Assembly: GCA_020975725.1 (NCBI GenBank)
Contig: QXJR01000030.1
Location: forward strand, 186,001 to 250,000
DNA from: Picocystis sp. L7
Lineage: Eukaryota > Chlorophyta > Picocystophyceae > Picocystales > Picocystaceae
Direction of reading: 5' to 3'
DNA length: 64,000 bases
In this document: in pieces, positions 16,066 through 36,375 of the stretch
Position numbering within the stretch: the first letter of the stretch is position 1
How the letters are laid out: each line of letters opens with the position of its first letter
The notes under the pieces: generated by a model
Databases searched by the model: none
The model's input: the letters and a program-made list of their open reading frames with translations, nothing else
What the model was told of the DNA's origin: nothing
Translations under genes and position numbers: made by a program

Positions 16066-18585
16066 TCAATACCTCGAGAGAAGGCACGAGACCTGCTGTT
16101 CGAAACTCTTGTCCGCAAAGTGCTGGTCATTGTCAGCGTTGACAGCCAGAAAAGCAGTGACCAGCTCCTCGCCCAACATCCTACGGATGGGCTCCGCCTT
16201 TTCAGACATCAAGCAAGTTGCTGCTTGCTGGAAGTTCCGTGGTAAAATTTCGAGTTGAACTGAAGATGTCGATGGATTGATTTGCACGGGAAGGGGCAAG
16301 CGCCTTCTCGATGAAATCCCCTCCATGCCCGCAGCAACGACCGCAGCGATCGCCAGGTATGGATTGCTTGTAGAGTCCATGGTCTTGATCTCCCAATACA
16401 GAGGTGGATCTTGCTCTCCACACGATATTGCCCTCAAAGGTGCCTCCCTGTTTTGGTAGCCCCAACACTTGTAAGCTCCACTCCACGTGTTTGGGGCCAA
16501 CCTGTCGTAGCTCAGAGGGGAAGGGGCGAGGATGGCTGTAAGTGCATCAAGATTGTGTAGAACACCTCCTATGAACTGGGACGATGTGCTGCTGATCTCC
16601 CGGCCACATTTTCCACCGCAAGACATCATGCTCTCACCCTTGTCGTTCCAAAGACTGATGTTCATGTGGCACCCATTCCCCGCTTCTCCCAAGAAGACCT
16701 TGGGGAGAAAAGCAGCTTTGCATCCGTGCTTACTTGCAATCGATGCAATCGACAGACGAGCAAGAAGAAGGCCATCAGCAGAGCTCATCGCATCGTCGTG
16801 TTGCAATGCCACTTCAAACTGACCTCTTGCAGATTCTGCATGCAATAGCCCAACTTTGAGGCCAAGCTCACTGAGCGCCGTCAACACATCGTCCAAAAAA
16901 GGTGCAGTCTGGTCAAAGGATGTGGCAGAGCAATAAGGAGAGTCATCCACTGGCTCAAAGGAACCTGGAGTGGTTGGATTGGTCTTGAGCAAGATAAACT
17001 CAATCTCAAAGCCAACCCGTAGAAATATCCCACGTTCTTGGAGCGCATGCAGTGCATGTTGAAGCTTGGACCTAGGGCAATATTGCCACACCTGGCCATT
17101 TTGACACCTCATGTAACCGAACGCCAAATCATGATTGGTCTTCCAAGGAATGCACCTCAGAGTGTCCTTGTCAGGAACAATATTGATTTCTCCGACAGGT
17201 GTAAGCCCACTGTGTGGAGAGGGGGCATCGGTATAAGCAGGAGTTGCCATGCAAGCTTTGGTCAAGCCTATGCCTCTCTCAGCAACCCAATCAAACCGTT
17301 CTGCAGGTACTGCCTTGCAGCGAGTGATTCCTGCTGCGTCGCACCAAAGAACTCTCAAGATGTCTGCTGCACTCTCAATCTTCATCGGCATGTGCGAGGC
17401 GGGATCTGCAGGTCGAATCTTAAGTTTGTACAGGGTACAGGCATTTCTATAAAGTAGATCCTCGGTGATACTGATTGCATCGCACTCACTTATTTCATTG
17501 GTGCGGAGAAGACCGGCCAAGATTCTGAGAAGCGCATCTCTAACATCTGCTGCGGCTATGAAGAAACCCTCTGGCATGAAGTGCGCATCTGTGCTGAACA
17601 GCAGCTTGTTGGACGGGCAAAGTTCCAGCGCCATGCTCACGACTTGGCCGATTCCCGATTGGCTCAGCATAGGGATTGCCAAACCTAGATCCAAAAAACA
17701 ATTCTTGTGCGCGGAGCAGAGGTGTCCTGCTTCACGAGTGAAAGGGTACCCTGCGTGAAGTATGACCACAGGGACTCTCAGCACATCTTCTTTCTCGAGA
17801 AAAGGTTTGAGGAGCAACGGGTTGGCCTGTTGCAGGTCTAAATCTGTGTCCCCAAAGCCTGTATGGATTTGGAGAGGAACGACTTTGGAGGCACGGGTAG
17901 CACACTTCAGCGCTTCCATCACGCACCATGAAACCAAGGGCGCTTCGACTATTCTCACTTTTCCATCCGCAGCGGTTGCTTGTATGGTCTTGTGGTACGC
18001 TTGGTCCACCTCTGAAGCTTCGAAATCCGTTCCAAGTGCAGCGAGGCCGCATCTGTACGCGGCGATTGTTTTCCAAGACACGACGTTACCCTGTTGGATG
18101 GTCTTGGAAAGGTTGGATTCGAACGCCTTCTGGAACTGTTCCCACGTGGGAAACGGGTTTGCGTTCCTCTCCTTTCGTTGTTCCATCGTTTCTTCGGCGA
18201 TGCGTTCGATCCTTGCAACTCGATACACGTGCTTCACGACCTCCTTGTGCTTCTCCAGCGACCACATGTTTGGTGCGACGAGCCCGTCGTCCACGAGGAC
18301 GGCCTGGATGTTCGCCTTCTCGAAGCACAGGCGCGCCATCTCCACCGTGTCGATGGCGTCTCGCGCTTCCTGCACGCCTTCGAAGCTCCTTTCGCATCCC
18401 AGCAGCTCCGCCAGCCGTCGCACCGCGCGCTTCGCCGCGAGTGTGTGCTTGGCGTCTTCCTGTGCGTTTCCTTCCGCTTCCGACACGCAGGTCTCCAGCC
18501 GCGCTTTCCCTTCGCAGATGACGTGGCAGTGGTGGTCCACGATTGGACAGCTGGCCACGAAACCTCGCCATCGACGTCCATCCAT
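16066..18585 (-). CDS. Amidohydrolase fused to type-I glutamine synthetase (FluG/NodGS type)
   Basis: 839 residues from the ATG at 18585; an ATG at 18630 would add 15. The first ~390 residues form an amidohydrolase-like TIM barrel: VDHHCHV (metal-site HxH), VVILHAGYPFTREAGHL, NCFLDLGL and LLFSTDAHFMPEGFF. The last ~430 residues resemble bacterial-type glutamine synthetase: GFEIEFILL (acidic metal ligands), GNGCHMNISLW (the GxHxH-like glutamate loop) and RLAPNTWSGAYKCWGYQNREAPLR. The same fusion is known as fungal FluG and plant NodGS, linked to developmental signalling rather than bulk nitrogen assimilation. Activity cannot be inferred: plant NodGS lacks standard synthetase activity. It ends 109 bp from the stop of the convergent SRPBCC gene. 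Confidence 0.9.
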   Translation of the reverse strand: MDGRRWRGFVASCPIVDHHCHVICEGKARLETCVSEAEGNAQEDAKHTLAAKRAVRRLAELLGCERSFEGVQEARDAIDTVEMARLCFEKANIQAVLVDDGLVAPNMWSLEKHKEVVKHVYRVARIERIAEETMEQRKERNANPFPTWEQFQKAFESNLSKTIQQGNVVSWKTIAAYRCGLAALGTDFEASEVDQAYHKTIQATAADGKVRIVEAPLVSWCVMEALKCATRASKVVPLQIHTGFGDTDLDLQQANPLLLKPFLEKEDVLRVPVVILHAGYPFTREAGHLCSAHKNCFLDLGLAIPMLSQSGIGQVVSMALELCPSNKLLFSTDAHFMPEGFFIAAADVRDALLRILAGLLRTNEISECDAISITEDLLYRNACTLYKLKIRPADPASHMPMKIESAADILRVLWCDAAGITRCKAVPAERFDWVAERGIGLTKACMATPAYTDAPSPHSGLTPVGEINIVPDKDTLRCIPWKTNHDLAFGYMRCQNGQVWQYCPRSKLQHALHALQERGIFLRVGFEIEFILLKTNPTTPGSFEPVDDSPYCSATSFDQTAPFLDDVLTALSELGLKVGLLHAESARGQFEVALQHDDAMSSADGLLLARLSIASIASKHGCKAAFLPKVFLGEAGNGCHMNISLWNDKGESMMSCGGKCGREISSTSSQFIGGVLHNLDALTAILAPSPLSYDRLAPNTWSGAYKCWGYQNREAPLRAISCGEQDPPLYWEIKTMDSTSNPYLAIAAVVAAGMEGISSRRRLPLPVQINPSTSSVQLEILPRNFQQAATCLMSEKAEPIRRMLGEELVTAFLAVNADNDQHFADKSFEQQVSCLLSRY

Positions 18586-19029
18586 GGCCACGTGGAACGC
18601 GCTCTGCACAGGTTGTGTGCACGGCAGCACCGCCTAGATGGTCCAGGTGATCGACCAAGTGGATCAGGAAAGGAACACCACCACTTCTCCCAGTCCTGAT
18701 CCTACTTGTTCGCCCATGCTACCTTCCTCTCAACTTTCGTATCCATCGCTGCAATGCAAAGGAACACGGCACACGCGCCCGTCACGCCCAAGCTCTGTTC
18801 GCAAAACTCCATCAGACCACCGGGAAGGAAACCTCAGAGAACATAGACAAAGGCCTGTAGATCCGCGATGGTATGGACAAAACTACCGCGCCTACAGAAG
18901 AAACACTGGTGGGAAGTGCACTCACCAGACACAAACCCCAACACTCCGCTTGACAACAAGGAAAGCATCGCTCCAACAACAGTCCGGAACGAACGGGGGT
19001 GGAGATACTGGGATCGCCAAACCCTTCGC
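18586..19029. other. Upstream region of the amidohydrolase-GS gene
   Basis: 444 bp between two minus-strand genes. A plus-strand open frame of 218 codons begins at 18638 but runs antisense through the next gene and has Thr/Pro/Gln-rich composition without motifs, so it is not called. None of the recurrent palindromic elements is present. Confidence 0.4.
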
Positions 19030-28911: not shown

Positions 28912-31014
28912 TCAACCTGCACGCACGTTGGTCTTCCAACGCAGTGCAAAATACACCAAAAAACGCAAACCCACCAGCATAGCGAACAACGCGCCCACCT
29001 CCTCCCCCACGCTGCTGTTCACGTCCAACGGGAGGATGTTCGTATCGGATATGGGTTCCACTTGACCGCCCGACCGGACGTTTTCGTCCCGAAACTGCAA
29101 CTTCAAGGTGATGAAGTAACCGTAACGGATGAAACTCAGGTACTTGAGCCAATCGATCCACACCGGAATGTTGTCCACGTAAAAACCGCCCACCAGCATG
29201 ATCGTCAGCACCGTGACCGTGGACACGGCCTGGGCCGTCTTAACGTTCTGATACAGGGCCCCGAACAGAAGGCCGACACTCTGGGAGACCAAGGTGCTCA
29301 GGATGATCGTGCACAAGTACGCCAGGAAGGTCCAACCGTTGCGCTGCAATCCCCCCAGCCAGTACAAAAGCGTCACCATGATTGCCGGCGTGATCCCGTC
29401 CATGGGAAGGTCCGACAACGTCCTGGAGATGTAGTACGCCGACAACTTGTACATGCTACTCGTTCTCTCCTTGGTGATCATCCTGAACTCGTTCGGGAAC
29501 GTGAACAATGCCGCGAATAAAGCTTGGAAGCTGCAAAAGAGGACGGAGAAGAACAGCAGCCCCGCCACGTCCAACACCGTACCCTCCGAGTAGTATTTGA
29601 CCCCATCTTCGTCCCGCTCGGTATCTTGCCCAGCATCGAACCATAGGAGGCCACACACAAGGCCCACGAATGTTGTTTGCAAAATTTTCTGTCCACTGTA
29701 CGCTTCGAAACGCCTAGCCCTCAGTGTCCTGATCATGAGGATGTAGAACTGCCGCGAGTAAGACGCCCTGCCCGGATTGCTCGAGCCACACAGACGACGC
29801 ACGAAGGAAGCGTGCTTGGGATCGTCTTGGTCCAGGGTGAGCATGCCATCGCCTGAGTCCGCCGTGGACAAAGATGCACGCGCTTTTCCATCCTGTCGGA
29901 ACGACTCCTTGAGATGTGATCGAATTTTCTCGCTGTCGCTCACCATCTCCTCCCCGTTCTCTGCATGGCTCGACCATTTCTCCTTCACCAATCCCACGTC
30001 CAAACCATCCGAAGACTTCAGGCCGATGTCCGTCAGTAGATCCCCCGACGCCAGATCAAGCAAGAAATCTGCAGGATTGACCCCATAGGGCAACTCATAG
30101 CCGATGCTGGAAAAGTAGGATATGGATTCCTTGGCAGATCCATAATAGATGACGGATCCCTCACACAGGAGGAGCAATTTGTCCAGCATGTGATAGATTC
30201 GGGAGGAAGGCTGGTGGATGGTGGTGATGATGGTGCGTCCCCCGTTGCTCAAGGTACGCAAGGTATGCACCAGCCTCAGAGCTGTCGTAGAATCCAGTCC
30301 GGACGTTGGCTCGTCCAGCATGAGCAAGGACGGATTGACCAACAGTTCGTGTCCAATGGAACACCGCTTCCTCTCACCTCCCGAGACCCCTCTCCTCAGG
30401 TATCCACCAATGATGGTGTCCCTACACCGGTCGAGTCCCAAGTTGAAAATGATGGTCTCCACGCGTTGTATTTTTCGAGCTTTGGGCATCTTCTCCGGCA
30501 GCCTGAGCATGGCCGCGAAGTAGAGCGTCTCGTAGACGGTCAGGTCTTGGAAGAGGATGTCGTCCTGGGTGACAAAGGCGGTCCGTTTTTTGAACTCTTT
30601 GTTGAACGGTCCATCGTTGTAGGTGATCTCTCCGTCCACCTTGAAGGGGCTTCTACCGCCCAGGATTGTCAGCAAGGACGTCTTCCCACTCCCGGAAGGT
30701 CCCATGCACGCCAGCAGTTCTCCTGGCCTGGCCCTACCCGATACGTCGTGCAACACTTGCATCTTCTCCGTGCTCTGCTGCACCGTGCATTTATACCAAG
30801 GGGTTCCTTCCGGCGTCAGAGGAACCCAGCTGTTGATGTGTTCGAAGCGCAGCACGATCCTCTTCTCCGGCGGGACGCTTCCCAAGTCCGCTGCACGGCT
30901 CTTGGTCCGTTCCCGATCCACCGCACCGAATTTCCTGCCTGGCACGTTCCCGTTCTTCTTCCCTCCCGTTTCCACGTCTTCCACCGCTCCAGGGACGTCC
31001 CTCTCGACCGCCAT
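28912..31014 (-). CDS. ABCG half-transporter (white/WBC subfamily)
   Basis: 700 residues in the reverse order typical of ABCG: nucleotide-binding domain first, then six membrane helices. Walker A GPSGSGKT near 123-130, QDDILF (Q-loop), signature VSGGERKR, Walker B SLLMLDEPTSGLD and switch TTIHQPSS are intact. The membrane part contains KILQTTFVGLVCGLLWF, VAGLLFFSVLFCSFQALFAALF, LVSQSVGLLFGALYQNV and ALFAMLVGLRFLVYFALRW. A half-size transporter must dimerise. ABCG proteins export lipids, sterols, waxes or hormones; the substrate here cannot be inferred. A 100-residue acidic/Ser-rich linker joins the two domains. The start MAVERDVPG lies 107 bp from a GAGTTAAG element and ~175 bp from a CCGAAAGGG element. 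Confidence 0.94.
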   Translation of the reverse strand: MAVERDVPGAVEDVETGGKKNGNVPGRKFGAVDRERTKSRAADLGSVPPEKRIVLRFEHINSWVPLTPEGTPWYKCTVQQSTEKMQVLHDVSGRARPGELLACMGPSGSGKTSLLTILGGRSPFKVDGEITYNDGPFNKEFKKRTAFVTQDDILFQDLTVYETLYFAAMLRLPEKMPKARKIQRVETIIFNLGLDRCRDTIIGGYLRRGVSGGERKRCSIGHELLVNPSLLMLDEPTSGLDSTTALRLVHTLRTLSNGGRTIITTIHQPSSRIYHMLDKLLLLCEGSVIYYGSAKESISYFSSIGYELPYGVNPADFLLDLASGDLLTDIGLKSSDGLDVGLVKEKWSSHAENGEEMVSDSEKIRSHLKESFRQDGKARASLSTADSGDGMLTLDQDDPKHASFVRRLCGSSNPGRASYSRQFYILMIRTLRARRFEAYSGQKILQTTFVGLVCGLLWFDAGQDTERDEDGVKYYSEGTVLDVAGLLFFSVLFCSFQALFAALFTFPNEFRMITKERTSSMYKLSAYYISRTLSDLPMDGITPAIMVTLLYWLGGLQRNGWTFLAYLCTIILSTLVSQSVGLLFGALYQNVKTAQAVSTVTVLTIMLVGGFYVDNIPVWIDWLKYLSFIRYGYFITLKLQFRDENVRSGGQVEPISDTNILPLDVNSSVGEEVGALFAMLVGLRFLVYFALRWKTNVRAG

Positions 31015-31530: not shown

Positions 31531-31549
31531 AAAAAACAAAAAACAAAAA
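31531..31549 (-). terminator. Pol III terminator of the permuted tRNA gene
   Basis: On the minus strand this reads T5 G T6 G T6, three adjacent T runs, 48 to 66 nt downstream of the tRNA 5' half. RNA polymerase III terminates at runs of four or more T. Position and strand fit a primary transcript that starts upstream of the 3' half and ends after the 5' half. Confidence 0.75.
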
Positions 31550-31596
31550 GTTCGGCCGTCTCCACGGAAAGCCTGGGACCACCGTGACGTTGTCTT

Positions 31597-31739
31597 CCCA
31601 AAGCGAGAATCATACCACTAGACCAAGTACCCGTCCCAATCGAACCCGAAGGTTCCCTTGGGTCGAACCCGATCAACCGCGGGGGAAACGGATTCCCCGG
31701 ACCGGGGTACTGCGAGAATCGAACTCGCGACCTCTCGCA
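31597..31739 (-). tRNA. Circularly permuted tRNA-Pro(UGG) gene
   Basis: On the minus strand the 3' half (31739 to 31704, 36 nt) precedes the 5' half (31632 to 31597, 36 nt), with a 71-nt intervening segment (31633-31703). Joined in tRNA order they make a complete cloverleaf: acceptor GGGTACT pairs with AGTACCC (7 of 7); D-arm GTCTAGTGGTATGAT with canonical AG...GG; anticodon stem CTCGC/GCGAG, loop TTTGGGT with anticodon TGG; T-arm GCGAG-TTCGATT-CTCGC (5 of 5); discriminator C; CCA not encoded. The break lies between positions 37 and 38, where canonical introns sit. Flanks GACGTT (upstream of the 3' half) and AACGTC (downstream of the 5' half) are exact complements, so both ends of the precursor can pair. 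No D-arm precedes the 3' half in the ordinary order. The A box and B box are intact. Confidence 0.92.
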
Positions 31740-33149
31740 GGTTCGTCCAAACGTCGCCTTCGTGCCTGTCCACATCTCTCCCACGATCCTTCACAGGAAC
31801 GTCACACGCTACTAGCACACCTATCCTTGAATTCGGAGCGTATCTGTAAATCGCAAAGGAGAAGAAGCGAGGAAAGGGGTCGCCGCTCACGTCGATCGCG
31901 ACGTCGCGACCACATGTGGTACATGAACACGAAAAGGAGGTCAAGGGGTGGATGCCAAAGCCTCCACCGAACCGGAATCCGAAGAGAAGGAACGGACAAA
32001 CGAGTATCGGGACACCCACAACACACGTGCTAGCGAGTTGGGCCTTCCGATAAAAGTGCACGATGCACTCGAAAGACAACGGAGAACGGCGGACCGCTGC
32101 CACCTCTTGCTGGCTATGGGTGCTCGTGCACGTGCGCGCGAAAATTTAGAAAAAGAACACCACCTTCTCAAGCTAGCCAAGGCTAGTGATGCCCCTCCAA
32201 TTGAAGTATAGCAATTAACATTGGTGGCTTGACTTGCGATCGTCTCTACGTTCTGGATGGGATTCTTCAAACCAAACCAGCGCCACTCCATTCGTTGTAT
32301 GCCATACCATGAAGCGCATTTCCCGAACAGAACATCTATCTCCGTCTTTTCGAATTGCCATCGGAACCGTCTTCTTGGATCGAAAAGGGGCTCGAGTGAG
32401 ACCAATTCGAACTTTCAACAGCAAGCTTCGTCGAACGCGAACATCTTGCAAGGCCCAATCCACCCACACCTTGACGAAGGTGTTCGACAAAAACCCAAGT
32501 TCTTGATGAATCAACCTAAAAAGTAAATGACTAGCATATCAAAATCAAATCAAAGTAGGATATCCCTTTTCAATCAATGTTCCAAAATTTAGTAAGGGAC
32601 GTGAGCTTTTCCCTACATCTACAAACGGCAAGCTTCAAATTGCAAGTCCGTTGCAACGTGAAAGATGCGGGTTGCAAGGCCCGTTCCCAAACGTTCCTCT
32701 AGTTTCAAGGAACTCACCTTCTCCTCCATGCTGCGTCTCATTGCCATTTGTAGTGAAACTCGACCACATCCGACCGATGCATGCGTAAGGAACACATTTG
32801 TTTTTCGACAAGGAGGAAGAAACTCAAGATACGGACCAGAAGCAGTTCACCTGCGCGAGTTGCAACGGCCAAGACCCGAAGGGAACGTGTCCAATCCTTC
32901 AAGCCCGTTTGCTTCGATGAACCCAAGGTTAAGCGCGTTCATCTTTGGTTGCAAGCCACGGCGTGGTCCGCAGGATAGGTTGGGGAGTAGACGGATCGGA
33001 TGCGATCCGGGTCGCTTCCGTTTGGCTGGTGCCTCGAGCTGTCTTTTTCTGTGTGCATTGATCCATCCATCCACCACCTTTCTCCCATCCACCCGTTGGA
33101 CCCTGATTAACTCGGTCCAAGTTAACAACCGATCGCCCCTCTTACCTTT
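31740..33149. other. Intergenic region between the tRNA gene and the CSC1-like gene
   Basis: Contains a CGCGACGTCGCGA palindrome near 31900. A frame open from 31927 to 32211 encodes a Lys/Glu/Arg/Leu helical stretch but has no usable ATG. A minus-strand frame at 32215-32514 starts with ATG (99 codons) and lacks motifs. Both are too weak to call as genes. From 32210 to 32700 the base composition is clearly more A+T-rich. GATTAACTCGGT lies at 33105-33116, with GTTAAC just after. Confidence 0.4.
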
Positions 33150-33236
33150 CCACCCGGATCGAAAGGGAGCCTTTTTTCCTTTCAATTGGGGAGCACCGTC
33201 CGGTTCGATCGGGAGGAAGCTTGGGTTCGAAAGGGA
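33150..33236. promoter_or_regulatory. TCGAAAGGGA / GGTTCGATCGGG elements upstream of the CSC1-like gene
   Basis: ATCGAAAGGGA near 33157, CCGGTTCGATCGGG near 33200 and GTTCGAAAGGGAG near 33225, 60 to 140 bp before the start at 33295. They belong to the recurrent family. Confidence 0.55.
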
Positions 33237-33294
33237 GATGGATCCCCTTTCGTGCGACCAAATTCGACGAACGTCGTCGGACGCGCGCGCGGCG

Positions 33295-36200
33295 ATGGCG
33301 ACGTATCACGTGCTTCGTGCGCTGCTTCAGGAGGAAGGGACACCGGAACCTGTTGCACCAGCACCAGAACCCGAAGCGGAAGTGGGAGAACCGCCTCCTG
33401 CGGTGGGATGCGTGCAAGGTGGAGACGAGCTGTTGGATTTTTTCTGCACCGACAACATCCGATCAGGCGACGAGCTGTTGACCTCGATGGTGACCAGCCT
33501 GGTGATCGGAACCTGCTGTTTCTTGTTGTTCGCGACCGTACGGACCCGACTCGTCACCTTCAAAACCAGGTTGCTGCATCCGCAAGTTACCCATCGGCCC
33601 GATCCGTTGCCTTCTGGAGGATGGCAACACCTGTGGAACTGGATTCCAGCACTAGTTCGAGTCACAGACCAACAGATACTGCGAGACGTGGGGCTGGATG
33701 CATTGGTGATGGACAAGTGCATCCGCATGTTTGCGCATCTCTTCCTTGTGTACTGCATCCTTGGCATTGGGATCATCTTGCCAGTGAACTGGAGCGGCAA
33801 CGTGGTCGACAACAGGGGAGAGCAGGGCGCTACTACCACCTTTGACAAGATGTCACTCACAAACATCCCGCAAAACTCATCCTTGCTGTGGGTACATTTT
33901 GTCGTGCTGTACGTTCTTGTGTTCTACACCCTTTTCATCCTCTACAGCAAGTACAGGGAGTTCATTTGGCTGCGGCACAAATACATCACAGATCCCGGCG
34001 ATGTCAATCACTGGCGGGACCAATACCTGACGGAACAAAAGAGGCAGATGGGAAGGTGGAGGCAGGACATCAAGCGTGAAGTCAATAGGGTTTTTTCGAA
34101 AATTCTGGACAAACAGGGCTCTCCACAGCAATCCTCAACCTCCGAAGAAGCTGTTGCCCATGAGCTCGACCCTTTTGAGATTCACACACCAAAATCACCA
34201 CCAGAAGAAGAGAGCCCACCTTATGGAAGAATGAGAGAGAGCTTGACGATTGAAATGGCAGATCAATCGTTCCAAGAAAAACTCAGTGCGAGTCTCTCGG
34301 CCGTCCCACCACCCATTCTGGGTGCAGTTACCAAGGACCTGGGCCCTGTTGATGATTCCTCAGCAAGGCTCACCAGGGGCAGGCATCGCCGATCACACTC
34401 GAAATCGCTGGAGGAGGTCTTTCATGAAGAGCTGATGATGCAAGCAGGCGATCGAAATATTCAGTCAAGCCCAAAGTTGTTTGTAGATCGTGCAGTGGAT
34501 CTTTCCCCCCGCTTTCGTAATTTTGAGGCCATTGGCGGAGTTGCGACAAAGTGGTGGGATGAAGTCACTAGAACTGACCAGACTGTTAAAAGACAAGCTG
34601 GTGACGAGGAGCCTCGAACCGATCTCGAAGGGCGGTACTTTCCACTGCCTAGTGTAAGGCACCGCCAACAGGTTAACACCGTTGATGGAGAAGGCAGAGA
34701 AATTTCTGTGAATGCTGCGTTGTACGTTGTCCTTCTCCAGAATATCGCCTGGCGCAGGAGCGAGTCCGAATTGCACAGTTACCTCGAAATACAAACTGTT
34801 TTCCGAGAGCTCTTTCCTGGTGAGGTGACTGCCATAGTACCAGTGAAAAACCACTACAAAGTTGACATGCTTCTGCTTAAATGGGATAGGGTACTGGCAG
34901 AGTTGGAAAGGGTGTACGAAAGAAAAAGACAGGGAGAAAACGAACCTACGATGAAGGTCAAGTGTGGCTCCAGGTTTTGGAAGAAAGAGGTGGTAGTAGC
35001 AGAGACCTACCTACAGGACTTGTGTTCGAGCCTGGAAAAGCAGATTGTCGAAGCTAGGCAGGATGTGATGGAAGGTCCATCAAGTCCCGCATATTTTGTC
35101 ATCTTCTCGTCTGCAAAAGCTGCTGCAATTGCAAGTCAGTGCGACGTACGTGGCAGTACCGTTCAACAGTGGAGGACAATGCCAGCACCCGCGCCTGATG
35201 AAGTCAGATGGCAAAGTTTATGGAAGGATTGGAAATCCAAGGGTTCTAGGGGACTAACAGTGTTTGCGTTTATCTTCTTGGTGATGATCTTCCCTGTGGG
35301 AATATTCACCGGTGCACTTTCACAGTTGAATAATGCTTTTTGCAATGAAGCCGGGGACTGGTTCTGGCCTTGGTATTGTGATAGTACGGGCACATGGCCC
35401 TCTTTCGTTCGAAATCTTCTTACAGGCTGGATACCCGCCATTTTGCTGGGTCTTTGGAACAACATCATCGTGCCAAAGACGTTCTACTATTTAGCTGCAG
35501 CGGAGTGCTCGTGCGTCAGCAACTCGCAGCTGGACAGGCGAATTGGATCGCTTTTTTTCTACTTTGATGTGTTCAACGTCTTGATTGGTGGTGTCATAGG
35601 CGGTACGGCTCTTGCACAGCTTGACCAGATTATCTCAGACCCAGGGCAAATTTTAAATCTGTTAGGAGCCGGTATACCACAGTCAGCTAACTTCTTCATA
35701 TCCTACTGCATGACAAACGCTTTGCTTTTTGCTCCATTGAGGTTGACCTTTCCTCATATTGGCGTTTTGATATACCTCATGTCCAAGCTCCTCCTGATTT
35801 TGAGGGTCAAAAAGATAAAGTCCCAAACTACGAGGGACTACCACGCCTCCTGGGCGCCAAAGAGCAACAGGTATGGACGAGAATTTGGGCTGCTTCTGCT
35901 TATTTTCCTTGTTGGTGTGTCTTACTCTGTCATGAACCCAATCATTCTACCTTGGTGTTTCTTGTACTTTTTGTTTGCATTCGTTGTGTGGAGATATGGG
36001 CTGCTCTACATCTATTTGAGGGTTTATGAGAGTGGGGGAAGAATGTGGCCGTTTGTTTTCACTCGTATCGTGCTCACCCTTTTCGTGCTGCACGTCTTCA
36101 CCTCTGCCCTCTTTTTTGTGAAGCTGGCCTTTTGGCAGTTTGCACTCATGTGGTGCACGCTTCCTCCCATTTTGTACAAGTTTCATAATCACTGCAATGC

Positions 36201-36375
36201 ACGATACAAGCAAAACGTACATTCGCTTCCTCTGGAGTGGGCAGAACATATGCCTCGAGTGCACATCAGCAACACAGTTTACCAGCCTCCTGCATTGAGA
36301 TATGGATCTGCAGGTTGGACTCCAGAAGCTGGCAAGGCTTGGGCTAATTGGGCAGCGCCACTGTACACCCTTTGA
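33295..36375 (+). CDS. CSC1/OSCA-like hyperosmolality-gated ion channel (DUF221)
   Basis: 1,026 residues from MATYHVLR; an in-frame ATG at 33238 would add 19. Domain order is that of the OSCA/CSC1/TMEM63 family. First come three N-terminal membrane helices (SMVTSLVIGTCCFLLFATV, MFAHLFLVYCILGIGIILPV, HFVVLYVLVFYTLFILY). A long cytosolic domain follows, with an unusual ~350-residue Ser/Glu-rich insert. Then KSKGSRGLTVFAFIFLVMIFPVGI leads into the seven-helix pore region including YFDVFNVLIGG, GIPQSANFFISYCMTNALLF and YSVMNPIILPWCFLYFLFAF. Family members are mechanosensitive Ca-permeable cation channels of the plasma membrane or lysosome. The insert is larger than in plant OSCA proteins and looks disordered. 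Confidence 0.92.
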   Translation: MATYHVLRALLQEEGTPEPVAPAPEPEAEVGEPPPAVGCVQGGDELLDFFCTDNIRSGDELLTSMVTSLVIGTCCFLLFATVRTRLVTFKTRLLHPQVTHRPDPLPSGGWQHLWNWIPALVRVTDQQILRDVGLDALVMDKCIRMFAHLFLVYCILGIGIILPVNWSGNVVDNRGEQGATTTFDKMSLTNIPQNSSLLWVHFVVLYVLVFYTLFILYSKYREFIWLRHKYITDPGDVNHWRDQYLTEQKRQMGRWRQDIKREVNRVFSKILDKQGSPQQSSTSEEAVAHELDPFEIHTPKSPPEEESPPYGRMRESLTIEMADQSFQEKLSASLSAVPPPILGAVTKDLGPVDDSSARLTRGRHRRSHSKSLEEVFHEELMMQAGDRNIQSSPKLFVDRAVDLSPRFRNFEAIGGVATKWWDEVTRTDQTVKRQAGDEEPRTDLEGRYFPLPSVRHRQQVNTVDGEGREISVNAALYVVLLQNIAWRRSESELHSYLEIQTVFRELFPGEVTAIVPVKNHYKVDMLLLKWDRVLAELERVYERKRQGENEPTMKVKCGSRFWKKEVVVAETYLQDLCSSLEKQIVEARQDVMEGPSSPAYFVIFSSAKAAAIASQCDVRGSTVQQWRTMPAPAPDEVRWQSLWKDWKSKGSRGLTVFAFIFLVMIFPVGIFTGALSQLNNAFCNEAGDWFWPWYCDSTGTWPSFVRNLLTGWIPAILLGLWNNIIVPKTFYYLAAAECSCVSNSQLDRRIGSLFFYFDVFNVLIGGVIGGTALAQLDQIISDPGQILNLLGAGIPQSANFFISYCMTNALLFAPLRLTFPHIGVLIYLMSKLLLILRVKKIKSQTTRDYHASWAPKSNRYGREFGLLLLIFLVGVSYSVMNPIILPWCFLYFLFAFVVWRYGLLYIYLRVYESGGRMWPFVFTRIVLTLFVLHVFTSALFFVKLAFWQFALMWCTLPPILYKFHNHCNARYKQNVHSLPLEWAEHMPRVHISNTVYQPPALRYGSAGWTPEAGKAWANWAAPLYTL

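Follow-up and report, generated by a model that had tools for sequence, protein, structure and literature searches.

Do two halves of a tRNA-Pro(UGG) that lie in inverted order on the minus strand of Picocystis sp. L7 DNA act together as one gene, and does this alga have any other source of cytosolic tRNA-Pro? The locus is found in a stretch of 64,000 nucleotides, hereafter the window, that corresponds to bases 186001-250000 of contig C28 in a genome of 20.5 Mb in 30 contigs. Judging from its sequence, the locus is very probably a nuclear tRNA gene that is circularly permuted and functional, one of three such genes that probably make all cytosolic tRNA-Pro.

Direct reading and a script agree that the gene occupies 31597-31739 of the minus strand, and that its 3' half precedes its 5' half. 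Its parts, together with the flanking elements discussed below, are as follows.

31704-31739, minus strand: 3' half of tRNA-Pro(UGG), 36 nt, positions 38-73 (anticodon stem 3' strand, variable loop, T arm, acceptor 3' strand, discriminator C)
31633-31703, minus strand: intervening spacer from position 73 to position 1, 71 nt, longest T run 3 nt
31597-31632, minus strand: 5' half of tRNA-Pro(UGG), 36 nt, positions 1-37 (acceptor 5' strand, D arm, anticodon stem 5' strand, anticodon)
31598-31600, minus strand: anticodon TGG, positions 34-36
31742-31745, minus strand: leader strand CGAA of a 4-bp central helix, its partner being positions 32-35 at 31602-31599; absent from minimum-energy folds
31740-31741, minus strand: leader bases CC of a 3-nt bulge, with the predicted 3' cleavage site CC↓U38
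31750-31755, minus strand: leader GACGTT, possible outer helix, near chance and not in the CGG paralogue
31586-31591, minus strand: trailer AACGTC, which would pair with GACGTT in the possible outer helix
31531-31549, minus strand: three T runs (5, 6 and 6 nt), presumed RNA polymerase III (Pol III) terminator, starting 48 nt past the 5' half

When joined, the halves give a tRNA of 72 nt with Watson-Crick pairs throughout the acceptor stem (7/7), the anticodon stem (5/5) and the T stem (5/5), while the D stem has just three pairs, one of them G-U. The conserved residues T8, G18G19, T33 and TTC of the T loop are present. In the minimum-energy fold of the joined RNA the acceptor, anticodon and T arms form, the D arm stays open and the anticodon arm is extended by three pairs. 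The first-pass annotation, made from the letters of the window, had described precisely this gene, with its 71-nt gap, 72-nt product, stems of 7, 5 and 5 bp, anticodon TGG and break at 37/38, and all of these features were recovered, as were the three T runs past the 5' half (31549-31531). Its expectation that ordinary tools would miss the gene also held, as neither ARAGORN nor Rfam at gathering scores finds any tRNA in the window. A coding reading of the locus was rejected, as neither of two overlapping open reading frames (ORFs) of at least 150 amino acids has a Pfam match above cut-off.

To such a tRNA a descriptor was fitted that combines a 5-bp T stem with a TTCRANN loop, a 7-bp acceptor stem, a 5-bp anticodon stem, T8, T33, three D pairs and a spacer of at most 200 nt. 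This permuted-tRNA-aware scan, which the annotation had proposed as a check, returns a single match in the window, at the UGG locus, against none when the window was dinucleotide-shuffled 100 times.

Searching the genome at the DNA level with the UGG locus (301-nt query) yielded two further loci, whose anticodons read CGG and AGG. At the AGG locus the search matched the 5' half alone, and the 3' half was then found by direct reading.

C26:272539-272708, one strand: tRNA-Pro(CGG), inverted halves, break 37/38, spacer 98 nt
C24:806384-806528, one strand: tRNA-Pro(AGG), inverted halves, break 37/38, spacer 73 nt

UGG on contig C28, CGG on C26 and AGG on C24 share one arrangement with differing spacers and flanks, and their acceptor, anticodon and T stems are perfect throughout. 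In the comparison of the 301-nt query with its paralogues only the halves align; by eye, the leaders are alike in little beyond their last bases. An intron-containing tRNA gene was rejected as an explanation because the order of the halves is reversed in all three loci. No match to the descriptor occurred in 2000 single-base shuffles of the CGG and AGG loci (1000 each), and across 87 loci (274,055 bases, some overlapping) it matched only the CGG and AGG genes, in five overlapping loci.

Covariance models of rotated tRNAs were built from the genome's own ordinary nuclear tRNAs, recast as 3' half, random spacer and 5' half. Training used 20 of the 22 intact nuclear tRNAs collected, two near-duplicates being omitted; models R1 and R2 include the UGG and AGG proline tRNAs, whereas R3 was built without any proline tRNA. 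R1 and R2 score the three proline loci at 57.6-68.1 bits, and their best scores for ordinary tRNAs are 25.4 bits in one test set and 31.8 bits in a crowded mitochondrial set. The hold-out model R3 gives 50.4 bits for UGG and 47.1 bits for CGG. At the AGG locus it reaches just 12.8 bits with a wrong alignment, likewise with filters off, so that support for AGG comes from the exact descriptor and direct reading and not from the hold-out model. The collection of 22 intact tRNAs contains none for Ser, Leu, Met, Gln, His or Tyr, an absence that says nothing either way on whether those genes are permuted. Rfam RF00005 scored only 63 of 710 candidates at both thresholds.

UGG, CGG and AGG are the usual complete set of eukaryotic proline anticodons, and the 16-mer GGTATGATTCTCGCTT is nearly invariant in the 5' halves of eukaryotic tRNA-Pro. 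In genome-wide word counts, which cover non-N sequence, this 16-mer has three exact matches, one per permuted proline gene, no place at one mismatch, and seven places at two mismatches against three in a reversed control. The anticodon arm of an intact tRNA-Pro, CTCGCTTHGGGTGCGAG, has no exact match in the genome and one match at one mismatch (L056); the latter was dismissed as an intact tRNA-Pro, as its loop reads CGC and ARAGORN finds no tRNA there. Genome-wide searches with the joined tRNAs returned half-length matches at the permuted loci alone, although the sensitivity of these DNA searches is modest, the UGG query having missed the AGG gene despite a long identical stretch. A second intact tRNA-Pro(UGG), named by the annotation as evidence that would speak against the gene, was looked for across the genome and none was found outside the organellar contigs. 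Intact tRNA-Pro(UGG) genes are present on C29 and C30, where they are expected because these contigs are organellar, carrying mitochondrial and plastid genes, respectively. Proline accounts for 194 of the 4377 codons in four ORFs of the window, and all four proline codons are used; with proline codons so frequent and all in use, cytosolic tRNA-Pro is needed. From these searches, the UGG, CGG and AGG genes together probably make all cytosolic tRNA-Pro of the alga.

C29, with its mitochondrial genes, shows 65-66% G+C in three sampled stretches, which is G+C-rich for a mitochondrial genome, and repeats the same tRNA clusters and frames in both orientations. C30 (L008, L031) is a small plastid contig of 61.6 kb with frames that we take to be ndhB, ndhD, ccsA and chlL. 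Plastid ndh genes are uncommon in chlorophytes.

In the hBH form of the bulge-helix-bulge (BHB) at a 37/38 junction, leader bases -3 to -6 are the pairing partners of bases 32-35, and the bulge that is cut consists of bases -2, -1 and 38. The UGG locus can be drawn in this form, with its 5-bp anticodon stem, the 3-nt bulge CC↓U and the 4-bp central helix; the cut at CC↓U38 is presumed from the known bulge-helix-bulge rule. All four pairs of the central helix are present in each of the three genes (UGG UUUG/CGAA, CGG UUCG/CGAA, AGG UUAG/CUAA), next to bulges reading CC↓U in UGG and CG↓U in both CGG and AGG. Sliding the leader from -2 to +8 leaves 0-3 pairs, the sole exception being UGG at +4 with four. 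The wobble base 34 co-varies with leader base -5, forming U-G in UGG, C-G in CGG and A-U in AGG; assuming equal base frequencies, the chance of base -5 pairing in all three is ~0.03. This co-variation is the best sequence evidence for use of the bulge-helix-bulge, which it supports rather than proves.

The annotation had pointed to a different pairing, between GACGTT and AACGTC in the outer flanks. Both words are present and complementary, but we discarded their helix as evidence, as it is near chance in shuffled flanks and missing in CGG. An outer leader-trailer stem of at least 6 Watson-Crick bp arises in 301 of 2000 wide-flank shuffles and 29 of 2000 near-flank shuffles, and the longest such stem in the CGG paralogue measures 4 bp. 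AGG has an outer helix at almost the same place as UGG, with another sequence and one G-U pair. The pairing that counts is that of bases 32-35 with the leader at 31742-31745.

Downstream of the 5' half, the first T run is 5 nt long at +48 in UGG, 5 nt at +38 in CGG and 4 nt at +32 in AGG, and within the halves and spacers of all three genes T runs never exceed 3 nt. For comparison, 18 of 21 intact tRNA genes have a run of at least four T within 100 nt downstream. The region upstream was surveyed for k-mers in 24 genes (21 intact and 3 permuted tRNA genes). An AT-rich zone is absent; TATATA occurs in 3 of the 24 regions, none of them proline, CTCCCC in 9 including CGG and AGG, and CGTGTTTC in 4, all above expectation. 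All three words lie at scattered distances, and none was adopted as a promoter element. B-box-like words in the spacers were set aside, such words being abundant in the genome. Compared with shuffled sequence, the spacer of CGG is unusually stable (z -3.74), whereas AGG (-1.66) and UGG (-0.33) are not, and no fold is common to the three spacers.

Two members of the tRNA endonuclease family (PF01974) are encoded in the genome. By sequence, one most resembles solved Sen2 chains (best E 9.5e-33) and the other solved Sen34 chains (best E 1.7e-18). The Sen2 frame (L088:613-1854) opens with several near-identical repeats of ~30 residues. A full-length RtcB match is located at C7:819885-821198 (plus strand, 547 bits). 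For the plant/fungal-type tRNA ligase (PF08302) there is no match in the genome, which is uninformative as the control also gave none. By its gene content, the alga may splice tRNAs by the RtcB route.

With this machinery, maturation could proceed as described for permuted genes in a 2014 review, in which a BHB cut is followed by formation of a circle retaining the spacer, spacer removal by RNase P and tRNase Z, and CCA addition (PMC3978253). Here, Pol III would make one RNA that runs from the leader through 3' half, spacer and 5' half to the trailer and ends in the T runs; a single transcript is suggested because no more than 71-98 nt separate the halves, both on the same strand, the spacer holds no T run longer than 3 nt, and T runs follow the 5' half. 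The halves would fold into the body of a tRNA, with the spacer closing its acceptor stem, and leader bases -3 to -6 would pair with bases 32-35 to create the bulge-helix-bulge at the 37/38 junction. On the model of Cyanidioschyzon merolae and green algae, the Sen2/Sen34 endonuclease would then cut both strands, freeing leader and trailer, and RtcB would join 37 to 38, closing the RNA into a circle. Finally the 71-nt spacer would be excised from the acceptor end by RNase P and tRNase Z, and CCA would be added.

Several observations weigh against a working gene family. The annotation had left the bulge-helix-bulge fold to be checked, and while the hBH form can be drawn in register in three of three genes, the minimum-energy folds of the precursors show the anticodon stem and the BHB helix in none of them. 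In these folds CGG and AGG form the acceptor and T stems, and UGG forms neither. The first T run of AGG is merely TTTT, a run that occurs ~3.5 times per kb, and the 24 tRNA upstream regions revealed no element at a constant position.

Would these points be better explained by a gene that is dead? A tandem tRNA-Pro duplication whose outer halves have decayed would leave functionless inner halves in just this order, with an intact gene supplying tRNA-Pro, and tandem duplication is a proposed origin of permuted genes in the 2014 review (PMC3978253). The precursor folds of UGG and AGG are unexceptional (z -0.15 and -1.38; CGG -2.47), as such a remnant would allow. The genome searches, however, found no intact nuclear tRNA-Pro gene to take over, the acceptor, anticodon and T stems have stayed perfect in all three loci, and the leader pairing has been kept through a change of anticodon. 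Nor is there a trace of the outer halves on the same strand within ~2 kb of UGG, where the next ungapped matches reach 18/36 and 19/36. We therefore consider a dead remnant very unlikely.

The halves might instead be transcribed separately and, as happens in Nanoarchaeum, be joined in trans, their closeness in inverted order being incidental. The 37/38 joint and the leader-trailer pairing would appear alike for such a split tRNA, but in all three loci the halves share one strand at a distance of 71-98 nt, with no T run longer than 3 nt in the spacer and T runs after the 5' half, which fits one transcript and makes a split tRNA extremely unlikely. That chance or an assembly artefact mis-joined an ordinary tRNA gene has nothing in its favour among the observations and is scarcely credible, given that the same arrangement recurs on C28, C26 and C24 with different spacers and flanks, that shuffled windows gave no descriptor match, and that both halves lie on the same strand, unlike the outcome of a simple inversion. 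Judged by arrangement, junction, motif and T stretch, the three proline genes are type II circularly permuted tRNA genes, of the kind known from C. merolae and prasinophytes.

How do they compare with the permuted tRNA genes already described? The 2014 review counts 34, spread over six algae and an archaeon; proline is absent from its table, and the spacers there reach 74 nt at most (PMC3978253). C. merolae shares with our genes the leading 3' half, the 37/38 junction (type II, 6 of 11 there), the terminal BHB, the downstream T stretch and the lack of an encoded CCA. It differs in having breaks also at 20/21, 50/51 and 59/60, no proline among its 11 genes, spacers of 7-74 nt (against 71, 98 and 73 nt here) and TATA-like upstream elements in most permuted genes, of which none were seen at the proline genes (PMC3978253). 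The nuclear permuted set of green algae resembles ours in being type II (18 of 19), in the hBH motif and in lacking introns (18 of 19), but comprises Ser, Leu, Cys, Arg, Asn and iMet with spacers of 11-64 nt, in contrast to three proline isoacceptors here (PMC3978253). Thermofilum pendens shares the permuted halves and the BHB, and differs as an archaeon with its junction at 59/60, an encoded CCA, spacers of 1 and 7 nt and an extra intron at 37/38 (PMC3978253). The permuted tRNA-Ser of Bigelowiella is also type II; it and that of Amorphochlora differ in being nucleomorph-encoded and serine only, with spacers of 5 nt in Bigelowiella (PMC4494063, PMC3978253). Auxenochlorella is another green alga with permuted tRNAs and a set left incomplete by ordinary tRNA search, and its set could include proline (PMC12633428, PMC12636532). 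The portions of PMC4494063 and PMC4033280 consulted name no permuted proline gene, those of PMC13353863 and PMC12301720 hold nothing on permuted proline tRNA, and the tRNA-Pro in the corresponding part of PMC4090602 concerns ordinary introns. In the open-access literature searched, as far as its excerpts extend and with subscription papers outside that scope, no permuted proline tRNA was found. Relative to the 2014 table, then, proline, a three-member isoacceptor family and the 98-nt spacer seem to be new (PMC3978253).

The neighbours of the UGG gene on either side are an ABC2-type ABC transporter frame (28912-31014, minus strand) and an RSN1-type channel frame (32665-36375, plus strand). Elsewhere in the window, one frame at 16066-18630 (minus strand) joins amidohydrolase and glutamine synthetase domains (Pfam), an arrangement that we take to be FluG-like. 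T-arm-like words proved abundant in the genome: GGTTCGAAYCC occurs at 338 places against 12 in the reversed control and GGATCGAAACC at 68 against 4, many places of GGTTCGAACCC are the palindromic GGGTTCGAACCC, and the 12-mer occurs once in the window against none in the reversed control. Thirty GGTTCGAAYCC loci were cut and 22 of them, one per palindrome pair, tested with R1, R2 and ARAGORN, which found no ordinary or permuted tRNA in these 22 and gave just one 15-nt T-arm-like match at 12.9 bits (L057). The over-represented words are perhaps a genome-wide intergenic or regulatory palindrome.

As to the position of the alga, the Rad50 encoded in the window has matches at 100% and 76% identity, and the best named green alga reaches 37% at full cover. 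In a midpoint-rooted tree of 25 chosen matches, a list with no Mamiellophyceae, it stands apart from land plants (100/100) and, on a long branch, falls outside a clade made up of eight named core chlorophytes plus one contig (100/100), with two further rows unplaced beside it. Plastid RpoC2 matches contigs at 100, 86 and 74%, and among the 120 matches listed named plastids do not exceed 51%, with roughly half of the protein covered. Plastid AtpA matches contigs at 98 and 97%; the closest named match at full cover is Cymbomonas with 88%, and the two named entries with the highest scores are plant proteins of greater length that align with partial cover (82 and 68%).

Taking these lines together, we lean towards a joint reading in which a chlorophyte outside the sampled core groups has all three cytosolic tRNA-Pro as permuted genes only, so that every proline codon would be read by a tRNA born as a circle. 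One permuted gene may have duplicated, with anticodon changes at base 34 matched in the leader, and the BHB would then have constrained how the family diversified. Permuted tRNA genes are rare, and since ARAGORN and Rfam miss the gene in the window, routine annotation could seem to lack cytosolic tRNA-Pro. In Ostreococcus and Micromonas, the entire tRNA supply for an amino acid with a single isoacceptor, such as Cys, may already come from permuted genes. A trio of genes with different anticodons provides a natural experiment on the leader base facing position 34, and the family offers a test of whether permuted genes are copied in permuted form or arise singly from genes with introns. Should there be no intact gene, a multi-isoacceptor amino acid would depend wholly on circular tRNA precursors in this alga.
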